In this document: positions 27,341 through 39,401 of the stretch, one piece after another | How the letters are laid out: the number at the start of each line of letters is the position of its first letter | Position numbering within the stretch: position 1 is the stretch's first letter | Source of the DNA: Jatrophihabitans telluris | Lineage (GTDB): Bacteria; Actinomycetota; Actinomycetes; Mycobacteriales; Jatrophihabitantaceae | DNA: 64,000 bases | Assembly: GCF_023516435.1 (NCBI RefSeq) | Contig: NZ_CP097332.1 | Location: 3,224,001 to 3,288,000, forward strand | Direction: 5' to 3' | Translations under genes and position numbers: made by a program | The notes under the pieces: model-generated | What the model saw: the letters and a program-made list of their open reading frames with translations, nothing else | Databases searched by the model: none | What the model was told of the DNA's origin: nothing

Positions 27341-28033
27341 ATGCGAATCCTGGTGGCCGAGGACGATGTCCGGATGGCGAGTATGTTGCGACGCGGCCTG
27401 AGTGAGGACGGCTACACCGTTGACGTCGTCCGCGATGGCACCGACGCGATCTGGCAGGCCACCGAACACAGTTACGACGCAATCGTGCTCGACCTCATGT
27501 TGCCCGGCGCCGATGGGTTCGAGGTCTGCCGGCGCCTGCGGGAGGCCGACCGCTGGGCGCCCGTGCTGATGCTGACCGCTCGCACCGACGTCGCCGACCG
27601 GGTGCGCGGACTCGACGCCGGAGCCGACGACTACCTGGCCAAGCCGTTCAGCTTCAGCGAACTCACGGCGCGGCTGCGGGCACTGATGCGCCGCGGCGCC
27701 AGGCCGCGGCCGACCACCCTGGAGGTGGACACCCTGCGGTTGGACCCGGCGCTGCACCAGGCCTGGCGCAACGAGGAGCTGCTCGACCTCTCCCCCAAGG
27801 AGTTCGCGCTGCTCGAACTGTTCCTCCGCCATCCGGGCGAGCTGCTGAGCCGGACGAGAATCCTCGAACACGTCTGGGATTTCGCCTATGACGGCGCCAG
27901 CAACGTGGTCGATCAGTACGTGGCCTACCTACGCCGCAAGATCGATCGTCCCTTCGGTCTGGAGCAGCTGGAGACGGTCCGCGGGGCCGGCTACCGCCTG
28001 CTCGAACAGGCTCGCCCGGCCGCGGGAAGCTGA
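27341..28033 (+). CDS. OmpR-family response regulator
   Basis: This 230-residue regulator has an N-terminal receiver with the acidic pocket (VAEDD), phosphoacceptor Asp51 in IVLDLMLPG, and Lys in LAKPFS. The C-terminal winged helix is OmpR-like (DLSPKEFALLELFLRHPGELLSRTRILEHVWDFAYDGASNVVDQYVAYLRRKID). The histidine kinase starts 3 bp after its stop codon, so the pair forms one operon. The stimulus is unknown. Confidence 0.95.
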   Translation: MRILVAEDDVRMASMLRRGLSEDGYTVDVVRDGTDAIWQATEHSYDAIVLDLMLPGADGFEVCRRLREADRWAPVLMLTARTDVADRVRGLDAGADDYLAKPFSFSELTARLRALMRRGARPRPTTLEVDTLRLDPALHQAWRNEELLDLSPKEFALLELFLRHPGELLSRTRILEHVWDFAYDGASNVVDQYVAYLRRKIDRPFGLEQLETVRGAGYRLLEQARPAAGS

Positions 28034-28036
28034 TCC

Positions 28037-29425
28037 GTGCCGATCCGCCTCAAGATCGCGGTGGCCTCGACGTTGGCCACGATCCTGCTGCTGGGCGGAG
28101 CCGGCCTGATCTTCCTGACCACATTGCGCTCGGGTCTGCAGAACAGCCTGGACAGCACGCTGCGTTCTCGCGCCGACGAGTTGGTGGCACAGGTCGACGA
28201 CTCCGGCAAGCTCCGGAGCGGTACCGCGGCCCTGCACCTGCCGGCCAGCGGCTACGGCCAGATCCTGGGCCCGAACGGCCAGGTTGGCCTGACCACCACC
28301 GAGCAGCTGCGCATACCCCTGGTTGATGCGAGCCGGATGGTCTCGGTCAAGGGCGGCGGCACGATCTATGACGAGTCGGTGCAGGAGTCGGATCCGGCCA
28401 GCCATCGCATGGACGTTCGCGTTCTGGCCGTGCCGATCGGCAAGTCGGGCTACGTCGCCGCGGTGGCGATCAGTCGGGATGTGGTGGACGAAGCGGTTGA
28501 GCGGGCCGGCAAACAACTGTTGATCACCGGGGCCGTCGTGCTCCTGCTGGCCGCTCCCGGATCGTGGCTGCTGGCTCGGCAGGCACTGGAACCGGTGGAG
28601 CGAATGCGCGCGCAGGCGGCGGCCCTGGAGGCGCAGGACGCCGAGGAGGGCCTGAGCGTTCCGCGCAGCCGGGACGAGATCAAGCGGCTGGCGTTGACGT
28701 TCAACGACCTGCTGTCCCGATTGCACCAGGCGCTGGAGCGCGAACGCGCCTTCGTCGCCGACGCCGGGCATGAACTGCGTACGCCTCTGACCGTCCTTCG
28801 TGGTGAGCTCGAGCTGGCCCGCCGTCCCGGCCGGAGTCGGGAGGATCTCGAGGAAACCCTGACCGTCGTAGCGGCCGAAACCGAGCGGCTGATCCGGCTG
28901 GCCGAGGACCTGCTCGTCCTGGCCCGCGACGACAGTTCGGTCCCGCTGCGCTGGCATTCCTTCGACGTCGTCGCCGTGCTGGCCGGCTCGATCCGTTCGC
29001 TGGAGTCGCTGGCCGACCAGCACGCGGTGCGGATTCGCCTGGTGGCGCCGGACTCTTTGATGGCCGACGGCGACCCGGAGCGACTTCGTCAGGCGGTGGA
29101 CAACGTGCTGAACAACGCGCTGCGGTTCGCCCCGATGGGCTCGGAGGTCACGGTCACCGCTGGGGTAGCCGGACCCCTGGTCGACGTGGGGGTCGCCGAC
29201 CAGGGGCCGGGTTTCGCGGCCGAGTTGCTTCCGGTCGTCTTCGAACGGTTCCGCCGGGGCGACACTGCCCGGACCCGTTCGGAGGACGGCTGGAGTTCCG
29301 GACTCGGCCTAGCCATCGTCCGCAGCGTGCTGCGGGCTCATCGAGGTACCGCCGTGGCCAGTAATCGCACCGACTCCTCGGGGGCGCTGGTGCGCTTGCA
29401 ATGGCCACGGCGGCGCGAGGAGTAG
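28037..29425 (+). CDS. Membrane sensor histidine kinase
   Basis: This 462-residue kinase has two membrane helices (about 10-32 and 155-176) around an extracytoplasmic sensor of about 120 residues. HAMP comes next (LLARQALEPVERMRAQAAALEAQ). HisKA carries the phospho-accepting histidine in DAGHELRTPLTVLRGELELA. The ATPase domain has NNALRFAP, VADQGPGF and SSGLGLAIVRSVLRAHRG. The start is a GTG 3 bp after the response-regulator stop. It ends 1 bp before the stop of the convergent DUF347 gene, so antisense read-through is likely unless termination is tight. Confidence 0.95.
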   Translation: MPIRLKIAVASTLATILLLGGAGLIFLTTLRSGLQNSLDSTLRSRADELVAQVDDSGKLRSGTAALHLPASGYGQILGPNGQVGLTTTEQLRIPLVDASRMVSVKGGGTIYDESVQESDPASHRMDVRVLAVPIGKSGYVAAVAISRDVVDEAVERAGKQLLITGAVVLLLAAPGSWLLARQALEPVERMRAQAAALEAQDAEEGLSVPRSRDEIKRLALTFNDLLSRLHQALERERAFVADAGHELRTPLTVLRGELELARRPGRSREDLEETLTVVAAETERLIRLAEDLLVLARDDSSVPLRWHSFDVVAVLAGSIRSLESLADQHAVRIRLVAPDSLMADGDPERLRQAVDNVLNNALRFAPMGSEVTVTAGVAGPLVDVGVADQGPGFAAELLPVVFERFRRGDTARTRSEDGWSSGLGLAIVRSVLRAHRGTAVASNRTDSSGALVRLQWPRRREE

Positions 29426-33236: not shown

Positions 33237-33239
33237 CCC

Positions 33240-33548
33240 GTTGAGGTTGCCCTTCTTGCGGGCCGCCCACCGTTGAGGTTGCCCTTCTTGCGGGCCACCC
33301 CACGTTGAGGTTGCCCTTCTTGCGGGCCGCCGACCGTTGACGTTGCCCTTCCTGCGGGCCGCCGACCGTTGAGGTTGCCCTTCTTGCGGGCCGCCCACCG
33401 TTGACGTTGCCCTTCTTGCGGGCCGCCCACCGTTGAGGTTGCCCTTCTTGCGGGCCGCCGACCGTTGAGGTTGCCCTTCTTGCGGGCCGCCCACCGTTGA
33501 CGTTGCCCTTCTTGCGGGCCGCCGACCGTTGAGGTTGCCCTTCTTGCG
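33240..33548 (+). repeat. 32-bp tandem repeat array 3 (10 units)
   Basis: Ten units start every 32 bp from 33240 to 33528. The core is GTTGAGGTTGCCCTTCTTGC, sometimes GTTGACG or CTTCCTGC, and the linker is GGGCCGCCCACC or GGGCCGCCGACC. It is the longest array in the window, begins 4 bp after the SRPBCC stop codon and is followed by a strong hairpin. Confidence 0.98.
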
Positions 33549-33567
33549 ACCGACCGACCAGACCATC

Positions 33568-33668: not shown

Positions 33669-34583
33669 TTATCGCGGTGCGATGAGGACGCTATGGGCCT
33701 GGCGGATCTCGATCGTGCGTGAGACAGCCGCCCGGTAAATGTCGCCAGGGATCAACACCGGGACCACGACACCGTCAACCGTGAACGAGCCCTGCCAATG
33801 CGCCACAACACTCACCGTATGAAAACCCGGGCGATACCAGGCGTGCGCGATATACCGACGACACACCGAAATCGACTCACACGGCACGCGATCCGAATAC
33901 GGCCTCCCCACCGGATCACCACCAGGCACCGAATACGTGTCACTGGACCCATCACCCCAAGACCACGTCGACCTCGTCAACCGCAGCGTCACCCGGAAAC
34001 GATGCCCACCCAAAACGAACGACTCAACCATCGGCCGAGCAAGATCACCAGACTCCGCCGGCGCCCGCAGAAAGAACACCACCCCAGCACGAAAGAGATA
34101 CCGCCGCCCACCCGACATCACCACCGGACTCGGCGCCCGCTTCATCACCTCCTCCCGCACCGCAGCCGTCGACGGCATCGCCGACCCCAGGGCAGCGAAG
34201 CACTTTATGTCGGTCCTCACCAGATTGTTCGACCCGGACTCATAAGTCTTGCTGACAGTAACCTCGTGCGTCGGATCCACCGGCTCGATTGGGCTGCGGG
34301 CGCAGAGTTGGATGTAATCCCCACACTCCGGTGGAGTCCCGACCGCCAGATTTGCACTAATCTCGGGCCGCGGACCGCAGCGAACGAAGGTCACGTACGT
34401 CGTAACTAGGCCCGTGCCGGCAGGTCCCTGACCGGTGGGCGCCGTCGCAGTGGCGCAGACGTAACGTCCATGCGGGTCGGTGCTGCAGAATCGCTCAGCT
34501 CGCGCGATCGCGGGCTCGGAAAGGCTGGCCACCACTAACGCCAGGACAATCAAGGTGGAGAATCGTAAGAGCCGAAGTCTCAT
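33669..34583 (-). CDS. Secreted PKD-domain protein, copy 1
   Basis: This 304-residue protein has a signal peptide (helix at about 8-24, cleavage near AIARA). The middle has several Cys (FCST, YVCA, VRCGP, PECG, QLCA), suggesting disulfides. The C-terminal half includes a PKD-like strand, STWSWGDGSS, then YIAHAWYRPGFHTVSVVAHWQG. ATG 34583 overlaps the stop of the upstream lipoprotein gene (ATGA), so the two are translated together. The last 175 or so residues are almost identical to the PKD protein at 35638, while the first 130 differ widely. Codons end mostly in G or T, unlike neighbouring genes, which suggests acquisition from another source. Confidence 0.82.
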   Translation of the reverse strand: MRLRLLRFSTLIVLALVVASLSEPAIARAERFCSTDPHGRYVCATATAPTGQGPAGTGLVTTYVTFVRCGPRPEISANLAVGTPPECGDYIQLCARSPIEPVDPTHEVTVSKTYESGSNNLVRTDIKCFAALGSAMPSTAAVREEVMKRAPSPVVMSGGRRYLFRAGVVFFLRAPAESGDLARPMVESFVLGGHRFRVTLRLTRSTWSWGDGSSDTYSVPGGDPVGRPYSDRVPCESISVCRRYIAHAWYRPGFHTVSVVAHWQGSFTVDGVVVPVLIPGDIYRAAVSRTIEIRQAHSVLIAPR

Positions 34584-35320
34584 GGTTGGCCGGCAAGGTA
34601 GGTATCGGAGATGATCCAGCGCGTTCCGGTCCACTTCGCGTATAGATCCAGAGGCAGCCGACGTGCGGGCTCGGTCTTTACAACATGCCCACCTCGTCCA
34701 ACCAGGTGGGACGCCGAGTAGGACAAGACCACCCGGACCACAACATCGGCTCGACTTCCGCCCTCATACGCAAACACCCTCATGCCGGTCAAGGCCTCTC
34801 GGCCGCCAACAACGTGTTGTCCCTCGCTGTCCATCCGGCTCAGGAATGAGTCGTTGTTCGTACACGTGGCGCTTTTGCAGACCAGACGGAGGAAGGCGTT
34901 TGAATTTGAAGCCAAAGCCCAATTGTCAGCGTCTATGTAATACTTCGCGGCGGCCACGGCGCCGGCTTGATCGTTGGTGAACATGGCCAGGTTGAATCTG
35001 GGTAGGACATCCCCGGTCTCCCTGAACGGCGCCGTCGTCGACACGCCGGCCGGCACCCACTCGGCGGGGCGCCCGGGCGGAATCTGATCCACCGGCACCG
35101 CCGTAGCGGATGCACTCGGCCCAGACACCCCGCCGCCGGAGGACGTCGAGGCCGACGTCGAACCTTGGGTCGCCCCGACCGAGCTGACCGCCGCGGATGT
35201 GCTCGATGCAGCCACGGTATTCGCTGTTGACCCGGTCACCGATCGAGGCGAATGCTGACACCCCGTCGAGGCCCCAAGGCCACCGACGAGAACAAGAATC
35301 ATGGCCGTCTGTCTGAGCAT
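34580..35320 (-). CDS. Lipoprotein, constant-N/variable-C family, copy 1
   Basis: This 246-residue lipoprotein has the lipobox STGC (Cys at residue 21), then a Ser/Ala/Thr-rich linker of about 55 residues. The domain that follows (VDQIPPGRPAEWVPAGV...GDVLPRFNLAMFTNDQAGAVAAAKYYIDADNWA) resembles DUF6318-type lipoproteins, with a later C-x5-C pair (CKSATC). The N-terminal 130 residues are nearly identical to those of the copies at 36554 and 37810; the C-terminal 115 residues are only distantly alike. It is coupled to the downstream PKD-protein gene. No Shine-Dalgarno site is obvious and CATAGT lies 6 bp before ATG, so the mRNA may be leaderless. Confidence 0.82.
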   Translation of the reverse strand: MLRQTAMILVLVGGLGASTGCQHSPRSVTGSTANTVAASSTSAAVSSVGATQGSTSASTSSGGGVSGPSASATAVPVDQIPPGRPAEWVPAGVSTTAPFRETGDVLPRFNLAMFTNDQAGAVAAAKYYIDADNWALASNSNAFLRLVCKSATCTNNDSFLSRMDSEGQHVVGGREALTGMRVFAYEGGSRADVVVRVVLSYSASHLVGRGGHVVKTEPARRLPLDLYAKWTGTRWIISDTYLAGQP

Positions 35321-35395
35321 GAGCGGACTATGCCAGCCGGAACACCCTCACGTCTCAGCAATCACACTTGTTGTGGAAAACTTCGACGTGGCGTC
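35321..35395 (-). promoter_or_regulatory. Shared lipoprotein promoter region, copy 1
   Basis: The 75 bp upstream of this lipoprotein gene are nearly the same as those upstream of the copy at 36554 (37283-37357), and about 60 bp match the copy at 37810 (38569-38632). On the minus strand CATAGT sits 6 bp before the start codon. Conservation in three copies supports a common promoter. Confidence 0.5.
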
Positions 35396-35427
35396 TCACG
35401 GGAGCGCCTACAAAGGCTGGTGGTCCG

Positions 35428-35461
35428 TTGGCTAGGCAGCCCATTCAAATTCTTGTTCTTC
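35428..35461 (+). pseudogene. Nudix gene 5' fragment
   Basis: TTGGCTAGGCAGCCCATTCA and the next 13 bases match the start of the intact Nudix gene at 37391 exactly (MARQPIQILVL). Identity stops at about 35461, where IS3-transposase-like sequence begins. Only 11 codons remain, so this is a remnant left by the duplication or by insertion. Confidence 0.75.
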
Positions 35462-35600
35462 ACAGAACTCGACATATCCGTTGCGCCAGGGTCCGCCGGG
35501 CGTGATGAGGCTCAGTCTGACGCCTTCGCCGCTCGAGTCGGCCACCGCGTCGCGGGCGAGTTCGGGCGGATTGCGATCCAGATTCGTAGACGTCCAAATT
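35455..35600 (-). pseudogene. IS3-family transposase fragment
   Basis: Read on the minus strand, this stretch encodes NPPELARDAVADSSGEGVRLSL and GGPWRNGYVEF. It matches the integrase core of the intact IS3 element at 62.4-63.6 kb (NGPELACDAMADWAGERVGLSF, GEPWRNGYVES). The ends of the element and its other domains are gone. The fragment sits exactly between the two duplicated cassettes. The 316 bp between the lipoprotein and PKD genes (35321-35637) hold only the shared promoter, the Nudix fragment and this scar. Confidence 0.8.
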
Positions 35601-35637
35601 CTCACTCGACCTGGATCAACCTGATCCGGTCTTGCCA

Positions 35638-36573
35638 CTATCGCGGTGCGATGAGGACGCTGTGGGCCTGGCGGATCTCGATCGCGCGTGAGACAGCCGC
35701 CCGGTAAATGTCGCCAGGGATCAACACCGGGACCACGACGTCGTCAACCGCGAACGAGCCCTGCCAATGCGCCACAACACTCACCGTATGAAAACCCGGG
35801 CGATACCAGGCGTGCGCGATATACCGACGACACACCGAAATCGACTCACACGGCACGCGATCCGAATACGGCTTCCCCACCGGATCACCACCAGGCACCG
35901 AATACGTGTCACTGGACCCATCACCCCAAGACCACGTCGACCTCGTCAACCGCAGCGTCACCCGGAAACGATGCCCACCCAAAACGAACGACTCAACCAT
36001 CGGCCGAGCAAGATCACCAGACTCCGCCGGCGCCCGCAGAAAGAACACCACCCCAGCACGAAAGAGATACCGCCGCCCACCGGACATCACCACCGGACTC
36101 GGCGCCCGCTTCGTTACCTCCTCCCGCACCGCAGCCATCGATGGCATCGCCGACCCCAGAGCAGCCTTACAGTCGATCTCAGTTCTCAAAAGGCGGTTCG
36201 ACCCAGACTCGTAGACATTGTTCGCAATCACCTCACGCGTCGGATCCACCGGCTCGCCAGGCCTCAGAAGACAAAGCAAGAGTGGACCGCTGCATACAGA
36301 TCCCATAGCGCGCAACGCGTCGGCGAACCCGGACCTGCGGGGACCACACCGAACTGTCTTCACGTAGGAGGCGGCCGCCGCCGAGGCCGCATGTGGGGTT
36401 CGGGATGCGGGCGGCCGCAAGGTGACCGCACAGTGGTAGCCGCCGAGAAGGTTGACGTCACAATCTCGCCCCTTCCCAACGCTAGGCGCGGCGCCCAAGC
36501 TTCCCGAAATTACGAACCACAGGATGACGAGGCAAAGTCCCAGCACGGCTCGCCTAGCTCGCCAGATAAACAC
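35638..36573 (-). CDS. Secreted PKD-domain protein, copy 2
   Basis: This 311-residue protein starts with a signal peptide (helix at about 9-28). Residues 30-135 carry Cys in positions comparable to copy 1 (DCDV, YHCA, VRCGP, SVCSG, LLLCLL) but otherwise differ. From about AALGSAMPS onward the sequence matches copy 1 almost residue for residue, including STWSWGDGSS and the RQAHSVLIAPR end. The start codon lies 20 bp inside the end of the upstream lipoprotein gene. Like copy 1 it is probably exported to the cell surface. The reason for sharing only the C-terminal half is discussed in the findings. Confidence 0.82.
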   Translation of the reverse strand: MFIWRARRAVLGLCLVILWFVISGSLGAAPSVGKGRDCDVNLLGGYHCAVTLRPPASRTPHAASAAAASYVKTVRCGPRRSGFADALRAMGSVCSGPLLLCLLRPGEPVDPTREVIANNVYESGSNRLLRTEIDCKAALGSAMPSMAAVREEVTKRAPSPVVMSGGRRYLFRAGVVFFLRAPAESGDLARPMVESFVLGGHRFRVTLRLTRSTWSWGDGSSDTYSVPGGDPVGKPYSDRVPCESISVCRRYIAHAWYRPGFHTVSVVAHWQGSFAVDDVVVPVLIPGDIYRAAVSRAIEIRQAHSVLIAPR

Positions 36574-37282
36574 CGTTAACCCGCCACATCGACCCGCTCC
36601 ACTTGGCCCACACCTCGTATGTCACGTTCGCTGCCGCCTGTTTCGCGAACGTCTTTCCGTTCGCGTCGATCACACGCCCCGCGGCCGTCGCCACGTCCAT
36701 GCGGATTACGGAATCTGCATTCGCCGACGGGTTGGGCGCCATCACTTCGACGCCCCCCACGCGCAGCCGACCGCCTTCTACGTGTCGATCGCCCTTAGTG
36801 CGCTTGGCAAACGCCGCAGCATCAGCCCGGCAACTGTCAGCGTCGCAAATCGCAAGATAGGCACTCGCAGTGTTCGACGCGCCGGCCCAGTTTCGCGCGT
36901 CTATGTAATACCTCGCGGCGGCCACGGCGCCGGCTTGGTCGTTGGTGAACATGGCCAGGTTGAATCTGGGTAGGACATCCCCGGTCTCCCTGAACGGCGC
37001 TGTGGTGGGCACGCCGGCCGGCACCCACTCGGCGGGGCGTCCGGGCGGAATCTGATCCACCGGCACCGCCGTAGCGGATGCACTCGGCCCAGACACTCCG
37101 CCGGCGGAGGACGCCGACGCCGAACCGCGAGGCGCTTCGACCGAGCTGACCGCCGCGGATGTGCTCGACGCAGCCGCGGTGTTCGCTGTTGACCCGGTCA
37201 CCGATCGAGGCGAATGCTGACACCCCGTCAAGGCCTCAAGGCCAACGACGAGAACAAGAATCATGGCCGTCCGTCTGAGCAT
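36554..37282 (-). CDS. Lipoprotein, constant-N/variable-C family, copy 2
   Basis: This 242-residue lipoprotein has the lipobox LTGC. Its first 125 residues match the lipoprotein at 34580 almost exactly (NLAMFTNDQAGAVAAARYYIDARNWA). The C-terminal half is divergent (CDADSC, GDRHVEGGRLRVGG, ending WAKWSGSMWRVNGVYLAS), yet keeps the Cys pair, a GGR motif and a W...W...YLA ending. This points to a shared fold under diversification. It is followed on the same strand by the PKD protein, copy 2. The divergent Nudix gene starts 108 bp upstream. Confidence 0.82.
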   Translation of the reverse strand: MLRRTAMILVLVVGLEALTGCQHSPRSVTGSTANTAAASSTSAAVSSVEAPRGSASASSAGGVSGPSASATAVPVDQIPPGRPAEWVPAGVPTTAPFRETGDVLPRFNLAMFTNDQAGAVAAARYYIDARNWAGASNTASAYLAICDADSCRADAAAFAKRTKGDRHVEGGRLRVGGVEVMAPNPSANADSVIRMDVATAAGRVIDANGKTFAKQAAANVTYEVWAKWSGSMWRVNGVYLAS

Positions 37283-37357
37283 GAGCGGACTATGCCAGCC
37301 TGAACACCCTCACGTCTCAGCAATCACACTTGTTGTGGAAAACTTCAACGTGGCGTC
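37283..37357 (-). promoter_or_regulatory. Shared lipoprotein promoter region, copy 2
   Basis: Near-identical to 35321-35395, with a few base changes. It lies between this lipoprotein gene and the divergent intact Nudix gene, so it may also serve the latter. Confidence 0.5.
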
Positions 37358-37390
37358 TCACAGGAGCGCCTAGAAGGGGTTGGTGGTCCG

Positions 37391-37837
37391 TTGGCTAGGC
37401 AGCCCATTCAAATTCTTGTTCTTCCATACAGCCAGATCGGGAGTGAGGTCCGCTACGGCGTCCTTCGACGAGCGGACTCCGCCGCCTGGCAGGGTGTGGC
37501 AGGCGGAGTCGAGGCCACTGAAGGCCCGGAAGACACGGCCAGGCGCGAACTCCAGGAGGAGCTCACCCTGAAGCACGCCGTGCCCGTCTTTCGTCTGGAT
37601 TCGGTCTCGTCGATACCGGCGTACCACTTTGACCGTTCCTCATGGGCACTCGACATGTACGTCGTGCCAGAATTTGCGTTCGCGGCCGATCTCACAGGCC
37701 AACAAGTACGCCTGTCCGACGAACATTCAGCGTTAAGGTGGCTGCCCTACGAGGACGCTCATGAGCTGTTGACGTGGGACAGCAACAGGACCGCCCTGTG
37801 GGAGTTGGATCAACGGCTACGGCGCGGGGATATCTGA
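37391..37837 (+). CDS. Nudix hydrolase
   Basis: This 148-residue protein has a Nudix box, GGVEATEGPEDTARRELQEELTL, about residues 36-58. It fits G-x5-E-x7-RE-U-x-EE-x-G-U except that Thr replaces the last Gly. The flanking pattern (PIQILVLPYSQIGSEVRYGVLRR, then SDEHSALRWLPYEDAHELLTWDSNRTALWELDQRL) suggests a (d)NTP- or dihydroneopterin-triphosphate-type pyrophosphohydrolase; the substrate is not known. The start is TTG at 37391; no better start exists. It overlaps the convergent lipoprotein gene by 28 bp. The intact copy shows what was lost at 35428-35461. Confidence 0.85.
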   Translation: MARQPIQILVLPYSQIGSEVRYGVLRRADSAAWQGVAGGVEATEGPEDTARRELQEELTLKHAVPVFRLDSVSSIPAYHFDRSSWALDMYVVPEFAFAADLTGQQVRLSDEHSALRWLPYEDAHELLTWDSNRTALWELDQRLRRGDI

Positions 37838-38568
37838 CGGCGGCCTGCCAGATAGAGCCCGGATACACGCCACATCGACCCACTCCACCTCAGGTAGACG
37901 TTTTCAACAGCCCTTCCTGCGGGCTCGACTTTCACGACGACGCCCTGGGCATTCACCGTCACGGTCGCGGCGAATTTCAGCCCGATCTGAACGATCCATT
38001 CAGCCCTTGGGGCGTCGTCGGACTTGAATACCGCAGAGCTCAACATTTGCTGTCTGCCGCCCTCGAAGTGGTAGCCCCGCTTCTGATGCGACCTCAGGAC
38101 CTCCGCGTTCGACCGACACGTTGCGTCATCACAGATGGCCTCAGTTGCGGAGGCAGAGTTTGATGCGAGTGACCAGTTGGACGCAGACAAGTAATACTTC
38201 GAGGCGGCCACGGCGCCGGCTTGATCGTTAGTGAACATGGCCAGGTTGAATCTGGGTAGGACATCCCCGGTCTCCCTGAACGGCGCCGTCGTCGACACGC
38301 CGGCCGGCACCCACTCGGCGGGGCGCCCGGGCGGAATCTGATCCACCGGCACCGCCGTAGCGGATGCACTCGGCCCAGACACCCCGCCGGCGGAGGACGC
38401 CGACGCCGAACCGCGAGGCGCCCCGACCGAGCTGACCGCCGCGGATGTGCGCGATGCAGCCACGGTATTCGCTGTTGACCCGGTCACCGATCGAGGCGAA
38501 TGCTGACACCCCGTCGAGGCCTCAAGGCCAACGACGAGAACAAGAATCATGGCCGTCCGTCTGGGCAT
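37810..38568 (-). CDS. Lipoprotein, constant-N/variable-C family, copy 3
   Basis: This 252-residue lipoprotein has the lipobox STGC and a first half nearly identical to the copies at 34580 and 36554. The second half is again different (CDDATC, RGYHFEGGRQQ, LRWSGSMWRVSGLYLAGRR). Unlike the other two copies it has no PKD-protein partner; the Nudix gene occupies that place on the other strand. Its upstream region matches the shared promoter for about 60 bp and then diverges. Confidence 0.82.
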   Translation of the reverse strand: MPRRTAMILVLVVGLEASTGCQHSPRSVTGSTANTVAASRTSAAVSSVGAPRGSASASSAGGVSGPSASATAVPVDQIPPGRPAEWVPAGVSTTAPFRETGDVLPRFNLAMFTNDQAGAVAASKYYLSASNWSLASNSASATEAICDDATCRSNAEVLRSHQKRGYHFEGGRQQMLSSAVFKSDDAPRAEWIVQIGLKFAATVTVNAQGVVVKVEPAGRAVENVYLRWSGSMWRVSGLYLAGRRQISPRRSR

Positions 38569-38669
38569 GAGCGGACTATGCCAGCCGGAACACCCTCACG
38601 TCTCAGCAATCACATCCCTTGTGGAAAACCTCTACAAGCCTGTCAAGCCGCGCTCGAGCATCTGCCAGC

Positions 38670-39152
38670 TCAGCCGCAACGTTCCCCGCTGTCGACCGCC
38701 CACGAACCGTCCTTCAATCGAGTCACGTGCAGGTGGACAAGGCCGGAAACAGCCGTTGCCTCGGTGGCATTCGCCGGAACCGCAGCGACGACCCGCCAGG
38801 ACGACTGTGCCGTTCCAAAATCGGGCTTCGCACCGTTGCGTGCGAAATCTCGTGCGGCCTCGACCGGACTGGCTGAGCCGTGCGCGCCCGCTGCGAGCGA
38901 CAGCGAGAACCCGGATCCAGAGTTCGCGCAGGCCGAAGCCTGCAGGGCCGGCGCCGACTGGTAGCCGCCGCCACCGCCCGCATTCGGACCGGCAGGGGTA
39001 GCGCCAGCGACAACGGACGAAGATGAGGACGACACAGGGGTCGAACCGGCTCCGACCCGCGATGAGCCCGGGCTGGCGCACCCCGCAAGCAGCGCACCGA
39101 CGACCGCCGACACGGCGCCAGCACACACCGTCGAAACGTGACGTTCCGCCAT
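38670..39152 (-). CDS. Putative lipoprotein (160 aa)
   Basis: This 160-residue protein has the lipobox LAGC near residue 25 (AVVGALLAGCASPG) and a Ser/Gly/Ala linker containing GPNAGGGGGYQS. Its short C-terminal domain (SPVEAARDFARNGAKPDFGTAQSSWRVVAAV...VSGLVHLHVTRLKDGSWAVDSGERCG) reads like a small alpha/beta sensor or immunity-like fold. It shows only weak similarity to the other lipoproteins of the cluster. The ATG at 39152 follows GGGAGGTGGTG, a good ribosome-binding site, unlike the copies downstream. Function unknown. Confidence 0.75.
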   Translation of the reverse strand: MAERHVSTVCAGAVSAVVGALLAGCASPGSSRVGAGSTPVSSSSSSVVAGATPAGPNAGGGGGYQSAPALQASACANSGSGFSLSLAAGAHGSASPVEAARDFARNGAKPDFGTAQSSWRVVAAVPANATEATAVSGLVHLHVTRLKDGSWAVDSGERCG

Positions 39153-39401
39153 CACCACCACCTCCCCTGTGCGGATGCGGCCGGCCGACCGATCCGTTGC
39201 ATCCTGGTGAGCGCGCCCCGAACAATTCACCAGTTCGCAAGATCGACCGGCCGCGATATCCGATCTTGCGTCCTAAGGTGGGAATTGCGACCGCAACCAG
39301 CCGGTCCCACCTCGGCAGCCACGTCCAGTCCATGCGCCGACCCACGTGTGTCGTTACGCGCACACCCTCACACGCGGTTGCCGTCTTTCGCAGGAGGTTC
39401 A

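Follow-up and report, generated by a model that had tools for sequence, protein, structure and literature searches.

The question raised by this locus is how two adjacent genes can keep near-identical outer halves from copy to copy while their inner halves, which lie next to each other across the gene junction, are strongly diverged. The locus lies in a 64,000-nucleotide (nt) stretch of the Jatrophihabitans telluris genome (contig NZ_CP097332.1, positions 3,224,001 to 3,288,000; hereafter the window) and comprises two tandem gene pairs, A and B, each consisting of a lipoprotein gene followed by a gene for a PKD-like protein, together with a third lipoprotein gene, lipC, which has no PKD partner. 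We consider it moderately likely that the inner halves form a polymorphic cassette of old alleles that determines specificity and is exchanged through recombination in the constant flanks, and that the two-gene module encodes a matched extracellular recognition pair. This reading draws on the gene layout, the identity breakpoints, the differing cores at orthologous loci, the shared history of the inner halves and the near 1:1 pairing of the two genes in one family of genomes, each of which is described below.

Cassette architecture and identity breakpoints in the window genome

All genes and blocks of the cassettes lie on the minus strand, and the two pairs and third lipoprotein with near-identical outer blocks that the earlier note on this DNA had described were recovered at the same coordinates. 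Pair A consists of lipA (34580-35320; an open reading frame (ORF) with a lipobox-like TGC recognized by eye, and alignable with lipB, lipC and the distal lipD) and pkdA (33669-34583; defined by its ORF, its overlap with lipA and the identity profile). Pair B consists of lipB (36554-37282) and pkdB (35638-36573; GTG start), both defined by ORF, identity profile and NG86 divergence. The lipC gene (37810-38568) was assigned from its ORF, identity profile, DUF6318 score and NTF2-like fold (residues 112-243). In lipA the N-terminal half is constant (to ~34940) and the C-terminal half variable; in pkdA, whose product would be exported by the look of its N-terminus, the N-terminal half is variable and the C-terminal half constant (from ~34190). 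The ATGA overlap that the note had given for the pairs is present between lipA and pkdA, whereas lipB and pkdB overlap by ~20 nt from the GTG start; because the window genes overlap, no gene stands between the members of a pair.

Cassette A begins with a 5' constant block (34941-35461; upstream region, signal peptide, linker and start of the NTF2-like domain), delimited by repeats and the identity profile. It continues with a variable core spanning the lipA/pkdA junction (34190-34940), marked by low nt identity to B and saturated synonymous sites, and ends with a 3' constant block that corresponds to the PKD-like C-terminal half (33671-34189; 92-100% identity to B, synonymous divergence (dS) 0.05). 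Cassette B has the corresponding 5' constant block (36909-37424, at a repeat offset of 1962-1968 from A), variable core (36159-36908; identity profile, with coordinates taken from the repeat offset) and 3' constant block (35640-36158; repeat D4 and identity profile). In lipC, a 5' constant block (38195-38600; repeats D2 and D3, identity profile) precedes a variable C-terminal half (37810-38194; identity profile).

Nucleotide identity between A and B was profiled in 50-nt windows. It is 90-98% from ~35460 to 34940 (74-86% at a 6-nt linker indel), 30-56% from ~34938 to 34295, 62-76% over the last ~130 nt of the core, to ~34190, and 92-100% from ~34190 to 33671. The core across the gene junction is ~750 nt long, and the outer blocks are mostly 90-100% identical at the DNA level. 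The breakpoints that the note had expected from a base-by-base alignment are present, the one on the lipoprotein side being sharp and the one on the PKD side spread over ~130 nt; the same step inside the lipoprotein gene is seen between B and C and between A and C. Block divergence by NG86 follows the same boundaries. The proportion of synonymous differences (pS) is 0.02-0.14 in the lipoprotein constant half (A, B and C) and 0.05 in the PKD constant half (A and B), whereas in the variable halves (A, B and C) it is 0.68-0.74 at 30-37% amino-acid identity. Profile and divergence together bear out the constant-variable-constant mosaic, a diverged core between homogenised flanks. Since dS is low outside the core (0.02-0.16) and saturated inside it, duplication followed by plain divergence is excluded; a single duplication cannot have two ages, and either the flanks have therefore been homogenised or the cores replaced.

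A distal fourth pair of the window genome, D (G000:1138347-1139944), places the divergence of the cores in context. Among A, B and C, the variable lipoprotein halves are 30-37% identical, no closer than to D (33-37%); for the PKD variable halves the A-B identity is 37%, somewhat above the 21% and 33% to D.

Different cores on near-identical flanks in other genomes

The same layout is found beyond the window. Among 12 multi-copy genomes, the constant-variable-variable-constant arrangement is clear in 7 (G000, G016, G276, the tandem pair of G186, one of three comparisons in G197, the lipoproteins only of G042 and one PKD comparison in G031) and weak in 5 (G036, G002, G007, G047 and G158); for G036, this comparison used the extra lipoprotein, and the correlation analysis described below used the partner of the second PKD gene. 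In G016 a distance of 2.5 Mb separates the two loci; homogenisation is therefore possible without copies in tandem.

Single loci were compared between genomes in family f14, which may be Geodermatophilaceae. Between different species of the same genus (879 comparisons), mean amino-acid identity is 0.65 for the lipoprotein constant half (LIPc), 0.35 for the lipoprotein variable half (LIPv), 0.39 for the PKD variable half (PKDv) and 0.80 for the PKD constant half (PKDc), the inner halves being less conserved than the outer ones across the family. Comparison of 95 loci yielded 438 locus pairs that are syntenic on both sides. Both core halves fall below 50% identity in 11 of the 18 pairs with flanks of at least 90%, and in 113 of 168 at flanks of at least 80%. 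For the 18 pairs, the median nt identity (in per cent) runs 92, 92, 87, 88, 57, 49, 53, 49, 45, 47, 43 and 48 along the lipoprotein gene, then 43-58 in PKDv and 93-95 in PKDc. The clearest pair, L091/L126, has flanks of 94% and 97% around identities of 0.88 (LIPc), 0.37 (LIPv), 0.32 (PKDv) and 0.99 (PKDc); in L160/L163, one of the 18, the hole is only weak. In the 33 orthologous pairs with both flanks at 88% or more (88-97%), median pS is 0.41 in LIPc, 0.73 in LIPv, 0.70 in PKDv and 0.17 in PKDc, and the higher LIPc value suggests that the 5' break often falls within or before the lipoprotein constant half. Several of the 18 pairs also have low-identity stretches in the flanks themselves (for example g33, -300 to -100; g39, +100 to +700; L135/L140, most of +0 to +1100).

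A similar picture emerges in f33, a family of another order. The L217/L218 and L219/L220 loci, ~7 kb in length, show mostly 76-100% identity in each 100 nt, interrupted at the same junction by a hole of 700-800 nt with 42-74% identity; the step is weak in a further comparison, L206/L207, in which both loci come from one genome. The core thus carries old, different alleles on near-identical flanks. The recombinant alleles that the earlier note had asked for between strains are seen here between species, with different cores on flanks of 88-97% identity in f14 and likewise in the two f33 pairs, and the cassette exchange it proposed is supported by these differing cores on near-identical flanks at orthologous loci.

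The same data decide the simplest alternative, an old duplication whose inner halves diverged fast or under relaxed constraint without any exchange. The lower conservation of the inner halves across f14 would be compatible with it; however, core synonymous sites are saturated beside near-identical flanks both in the window genome and between species, and the nt profiles of the f14 and f33 pairs concur. Old duplication without exchange is refuted by the synonymous divergence, and we give it next to no credence.

Distribution and pairing of the two genes

With a profile of 16 PKD-like proteins, matches were obtained in 108 of 298 genomes at the order level and in 168 of 345 at the class level, in searches that scored just 6-7 candidates per genome and give no pairing information. 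In f14, the PKD constant domain is present in 93/93 genomes, as a single copy in 83 of them, and the lipoprotein in 92/93. The two match counts are equal in 90 of the 93, the unequal ones being G036 (an extra lipoprotein), G268 (lipoprotein split by an insertion) and G336 (no lipoprotein found). A lipoprotein lies directly upstream of 95 of the 97 PKD genes sampled, the two misses (L143 and L144, dropped from the analysis) being contig ends; these 97 were taken from 106 PKD matches, leaving out the second G146 copy, G323, G334, G193, G304, G237, G182, G336 and G337, and gave the 95 complete pairs analysed. In G268, a 495-amino-acid ORF (L116, 4357-5844), transposase-like by eye, splits the lipoprotein soon after its constant part. 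In addition, the lipoprotein at one of the G016 loci is interrupted by two ORFs (L030, 9702-10882) that look by eye like an IS3-type transposase pair.

In f33, a lipoprotein was detected upstream in 18 of the 20 loci sampled. None was detected at the PKD-like gene of L204 and L213 (f33), of either f44 locus (2/2) or of L180 (f45), nor upstream of the PKD-like gene in any of the 18 f32 loci (L181-L198, from genomes of 1.3-2.2 Mb). The pair is therefore not universal, and in the small f32 genomes the PKD-like protein may serve a separate function. Lipoproteins lacking a PKD partner are lipC in the window, L033 (G007) and L074 (G036). Plasmids gave no match to two PKD-like proteins, and phages none to one PKD-like protein.

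The copy numbers bear directly on antigenic variation from extra or silent cassettes, which the earlier note had raised and which would fit the presence, in the window and some other genomes, of several copies whose flanks are homogenised. A search of the window genome at E of 0.01 or below returned four lipoprotein and three PKD-like matches with no further copies or fragments, so that the silent archive in the same genome that characterizes cassette antigenic variation was not found there. Since the PKD gene is single-copy in 83 of the 93 f14 genomes, most of them could not switch internally. Silent-cassette switching as a general mechanism is contradicted, and intragenomic variation of this kind is very improbable.

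Pairing also bears on a toxin-immunity arrangement, in which the PKD-like protein would carry a variable toxic domain and the lipoprotein would protect its owner. The variable parts are adjacent and covary, and the partnerless lipoproteins lipC, L033 and L074 might be taken for orphan immunity genes. Yet the aligned variable parts are homologous across variants, with common Cys residues and motifs rather than diverse toxin folds, and no Pfam toxin match was found among the proteins tested. Furthermore, match counts give an extra lipoprotein in only 1/93 f14 genomes (G036), which weakens the orphan-immunity idea, and the PKD-like gene has no detected lipoprotein beside it in 18/18 f32 loci. Exchangeable toxin domains and frequent orphan immunity genes, the marks of polymorphic toxin-immunity loci, are thus not seen here, and we judge this arrangement improbable.

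Shared history of the inner halves

The earlier note had called for a test of co-variation between the two variable halves, and the correlations, nearest neighbours and trees computed from the 95 complete f14 pairs agree on a shared history. The correlation is highest between LIPv and PKDv (r = 0.56), followed by LIPv and LIPc (0.51), LIPc and PKDc (0.47), and PKDv and PKDc (0.36). With both constant halves controlled, the partial correlation between LIPv and PKDv is 0.47, a value reached by 0/999 within-genus permutations. An identical nearest neighbour is found for LIPv and PKDv in 43 of 95 cases, compared with 31 for LIPc and PKDc, 22 for LIPv and LIPc, and 18 for PKDv and PKDc. The cost, in log units, of fitting the LIPv data to another block's tree is 847 for PKDv, 1879 for LIPc and 2900 for PKDc; PKDv data cost 1167 on the LIPv tree, 2154 on LIPc and 2522 on PKDc. 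For the PKDc data the costs are 1064 (LIPc), 1904 (PKDv) and 2398 (LIPv), and for the LIPc data 449 (PKDc), 663 (PKDv) and 728 (LIPv). From these tree costs, the outer blocks group together and the inner blocks group together, across the gene boundary.

Several observations weigh against a matched pair exchanged as one cassette. Every block rejects every other block's tree in the Kishino-Hasegawa and Shimodaira-Hasegawa tests; one value of the approximately unbiased test, for PKDv data on the PKDc tree, is 0.08. Matching of LIPv and PKDv is not strict, since 16 of the 42 f14 comparisons with PKDv identity of at least 0.65 have LIPv below 0.45; the reverse mismatch, similar LIPv with different PKDv, does not occur at these 0.65/0.45 thresholds, and LIPv of at least 0.60 with PKDv below 0.45 is found in 10 comparisons, 9 of them between genera. 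The inner-half correlation mostly decays with distance, and the shared history may reflect mere physical linkage; a small exception to the decay is PKDv3, which correlates with LIPv1-2 at 0.49-0.51, above the 0.42-0.45 of the nearer PKDv1. The f14 locus pairs are not independent of one another, since the same genomes recur among them; in several orthologous f14 pairs the 3' break falls within PKDv, and pair D is not homogenised with A-C. Moreover, across all 33 orthologous pairs the proportion of non-synonymous differences (pN) is lower than pS in each core half, with pS saturated in most, so that nothing indicates a burst of amino-acid change (non-synonymous divergence above dS).

Some of these points favour an alternative in which the variable halves are exposed surface targets, diversified against phages or antagonists and co-exchanged only through their adjacency, with no lock-and-key fit between them. 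Both proteins look exported by eye, one locus carries many alleles, LIPv differs in the 16 of 42 comparisons with similar PKDv, and the correlation mostly declines with distance, all of which would suit such targets. However, the equal gene counts in 90 of the 93 f14 genomes and the core boundaries inside both genes exceed what mere exposure needs, and the stronger correlation of LIPv1-2 with PKDv3 than with the nearer PKDv1 also speaks against it. We regard unmatched surface targets as a possible explanation, though not a likely one.

Domain assignment of the two proteins

The lipoproteins were compared with DUF6318 (PF19843; Pfam gathering cut-off 23.8 bits), for which Pfam gives no function. 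The cut-off is exceeded by lipC (25.6 bits) and by relatives in f14 and f33 (L073, 28.8; L091, 30.9; L217, 61.3), whereas lipB (19.4; E = 0.0014), lipA (13) and L008 (14) remain below it. A structure model of lipC has a predicted local distance difference test (pLDDT) score of 76-93 per 10-residue block over residues 111-240, and matches the solved structures of ARC6 (Z 12.8 over 126-127 residues) and PARC6 (Z 10.9-12.1) as well as VirB8, TraE, NTF2 and Tim44 (Z 9.2-9.9). The C-terminal domain of lipC is accordingly modelled as an NTF2-like alpha+beta fold. The constant block stops near residue 128, within the first helix of this predicted domain (116-136), and the remainder of the domain is variable. 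Searching the sequences of solved structures with the lipoprotein gave no useful match.

The N-terminus of the second protein resembles a signal peptide, as judged by eye; a variable part containing Cys follows, and the C-terminal half carries the WGDG motif found in PKD domains. No match to Pfam PKD (PF00801; cut-off 23.5 bits) was found in pkdA or pkdB at E of 1 or below, nor in the relatives L073 and L008 at E of 0.1 or below; L091 (18.5 bits) and L217 (18.7 bits) score under the cut-off. Because Pfam is silent in the window and the two relatives fall below the cut-off, we use the label 'PKD-like'. Matches to Protein Data Bank sequences are weak (ColH and PKD1, E 0.32-0.78), and the structure model is poor (mean pLDDT 45) and unusable. 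Window lipoproteins and PKD-like proteins have no NCBIfam match. From the signal peptide and lipobox, as judged by eye, both proteins look exported.

Proposed mechanism and relation to known systems

Under the specificity-cassette reading, the first gene would encode a lipoprotein with an NTF2-like (DUF6318-type) domain and the second an exported protein whose C-terminal half is PKD-like. The constant outer halves would comprise the upstream region, the export and anchor part and the start of the NTF2-like domain on one side and the PKD-like half on the other, and the inner halves would make up a single ~0.7 kb cassette across the gene junction. Its alleles would be old and numerous, passing from one strain or species to another through homologous recombination in the flanks; in multi-copy genomes, the same recombination would homogenise those flanks. 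Outside the cell, the variable domains would bind each other or one ligand, and negative frequency-dependent selection, through self/non-self recognition or escape from phages or antagonists, would maintain the alleles. The two proteins are probably a matched extracellular recognition pair, for which we infer both the contact and the selective agent.

A more far-reaching version, which we put forward tentatively and hold to be rather doubtful, is a widespread actinomycete self/non-self recognition system. In it, a tethered lipoprotein and an exported partner would present matched variable faces as recognition types, frequency-dependent selection would keep the alleles, and cassette exchange would spread them between species.

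Comparable layouts are known in other bacteria. In Staphylococcus aureus, a hypervariable region extends over parts of agrB, agrD and agrC within an otherwise conserved locus (PMC10482373). The agr system resembles the module described here in that its hypervariable region runs across adjacent genes of a constant locus, and has allele groups with matched signal and receptor; it differs in consisting of a peptide, a processor and a histidine kinase, whereas the module has a lipoprotein and a PKD-like protein with no intervening gene and no kinase match. Likewise, in comQXPA of Bacillus subtilis, ComX and the N-terminal portion of ComP vary strongly, with pherotype groups (PMC4008528). The likeness to comQXPA lies in variability in adjacent, partly overlapping genes; comQXPA is by contrast a quorum-sensing kinase system, likened to the module here by its layout. 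The module shares with agr and com a variable region across adjacent genes, with constant flanks, that differs between related genomes. No histidine kinase or peptide-signal Pfam match was found in the two proteins, the neighbouring genes not having been screened. In TraA/TraB, which mediate myxobacterial kin recognition, TraA has a highly polymorphic recognition domain in a more conserved remainder (PMC6372800). TraA and TraB are two surface proteins encoded by overlapping genes in one operon, in which respect they resemble the module; the variation there resides in TraA, whose variable domain is a distant PA14 homologue, and TraA drives outer-membrane exchange, whereas here the variation extends across the junction of the two genes and an NTF2-like fold is predicted for the lipoprotein.

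The earlier note knew of no described system with this exact layout, which holds for these proteins as far as our literature search reaches, although agrBDC and comQXP have comparable layouts. In the open full-text literature that was searched, we found no paper naming DUF6318 and no account of the lipoprotein/PKD-like pair, including among the listed matches on kin discrimination and in work on hypervariable loci. An exchangeable hypervariable core in several actinomycete families is a sign of strong selection on some extracellular interaction, of which no description was found; the module might be for Gram-positive soil bacteria what TraA or agr-type specificity systems are in other bacteria. 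The layout suggests an unstudied cell-surface recognition system in many actinobacteria. Different alleles at one locus on near-identical flanks make a clean case, and with flanks, alleles and pairing this clear, recognition is directly testable.

Neighbouring genes and repeats

A NUDIX-like gene (37391-37837, plus strand) lies between lipC and pair B. The upstream end of cassette A (35415-35461) matches 37378-37424 over 47 nt at 98% identity, including the first ~34 nt of the NUDIX-like ORF, and this match upstream of lipA is probably the scar of a tandem duplication of the cassette. The presence of the NUDIX ORF start in the upstream block that A shares with B suggests a tandem duplication as the origin of the two pairs.

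In L034, L037 and L038, of the window's family, and in L079, the gene after the PKD-like one is TadE/G-like; Pfam PF13400 confirmed this for L034 and L038, and the L032 match lies ~2 kb off on the other strand. A link to the Tad pilus as a general part of the module was rejected, as 0/95 f14 loci have a TadE/G-like gene within ~1.5 kb downstream among the matches listed. A simple gene finder, which missed the lipoprotein and PKD genes of the window, was used solely to view neighbours.

Upstream of lipC, another small lipoprotein-like ORF (38670-39230) has no Pfam or NCBIfam match. ORFs resembling a response regulator and a sensor kinase by eye (27341-29422, plus strand) lie more than 4 kb from pkdA. 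Downstream of pkdA, ~10 tandem copies of a 32-nt unit occupy 33238-33557. A 24-nt part of this unit occurs 114 times in the genome with at most 2 mismatches (39 forward, 75 reverse; reversed control, 0), often at 32-nt spacing.

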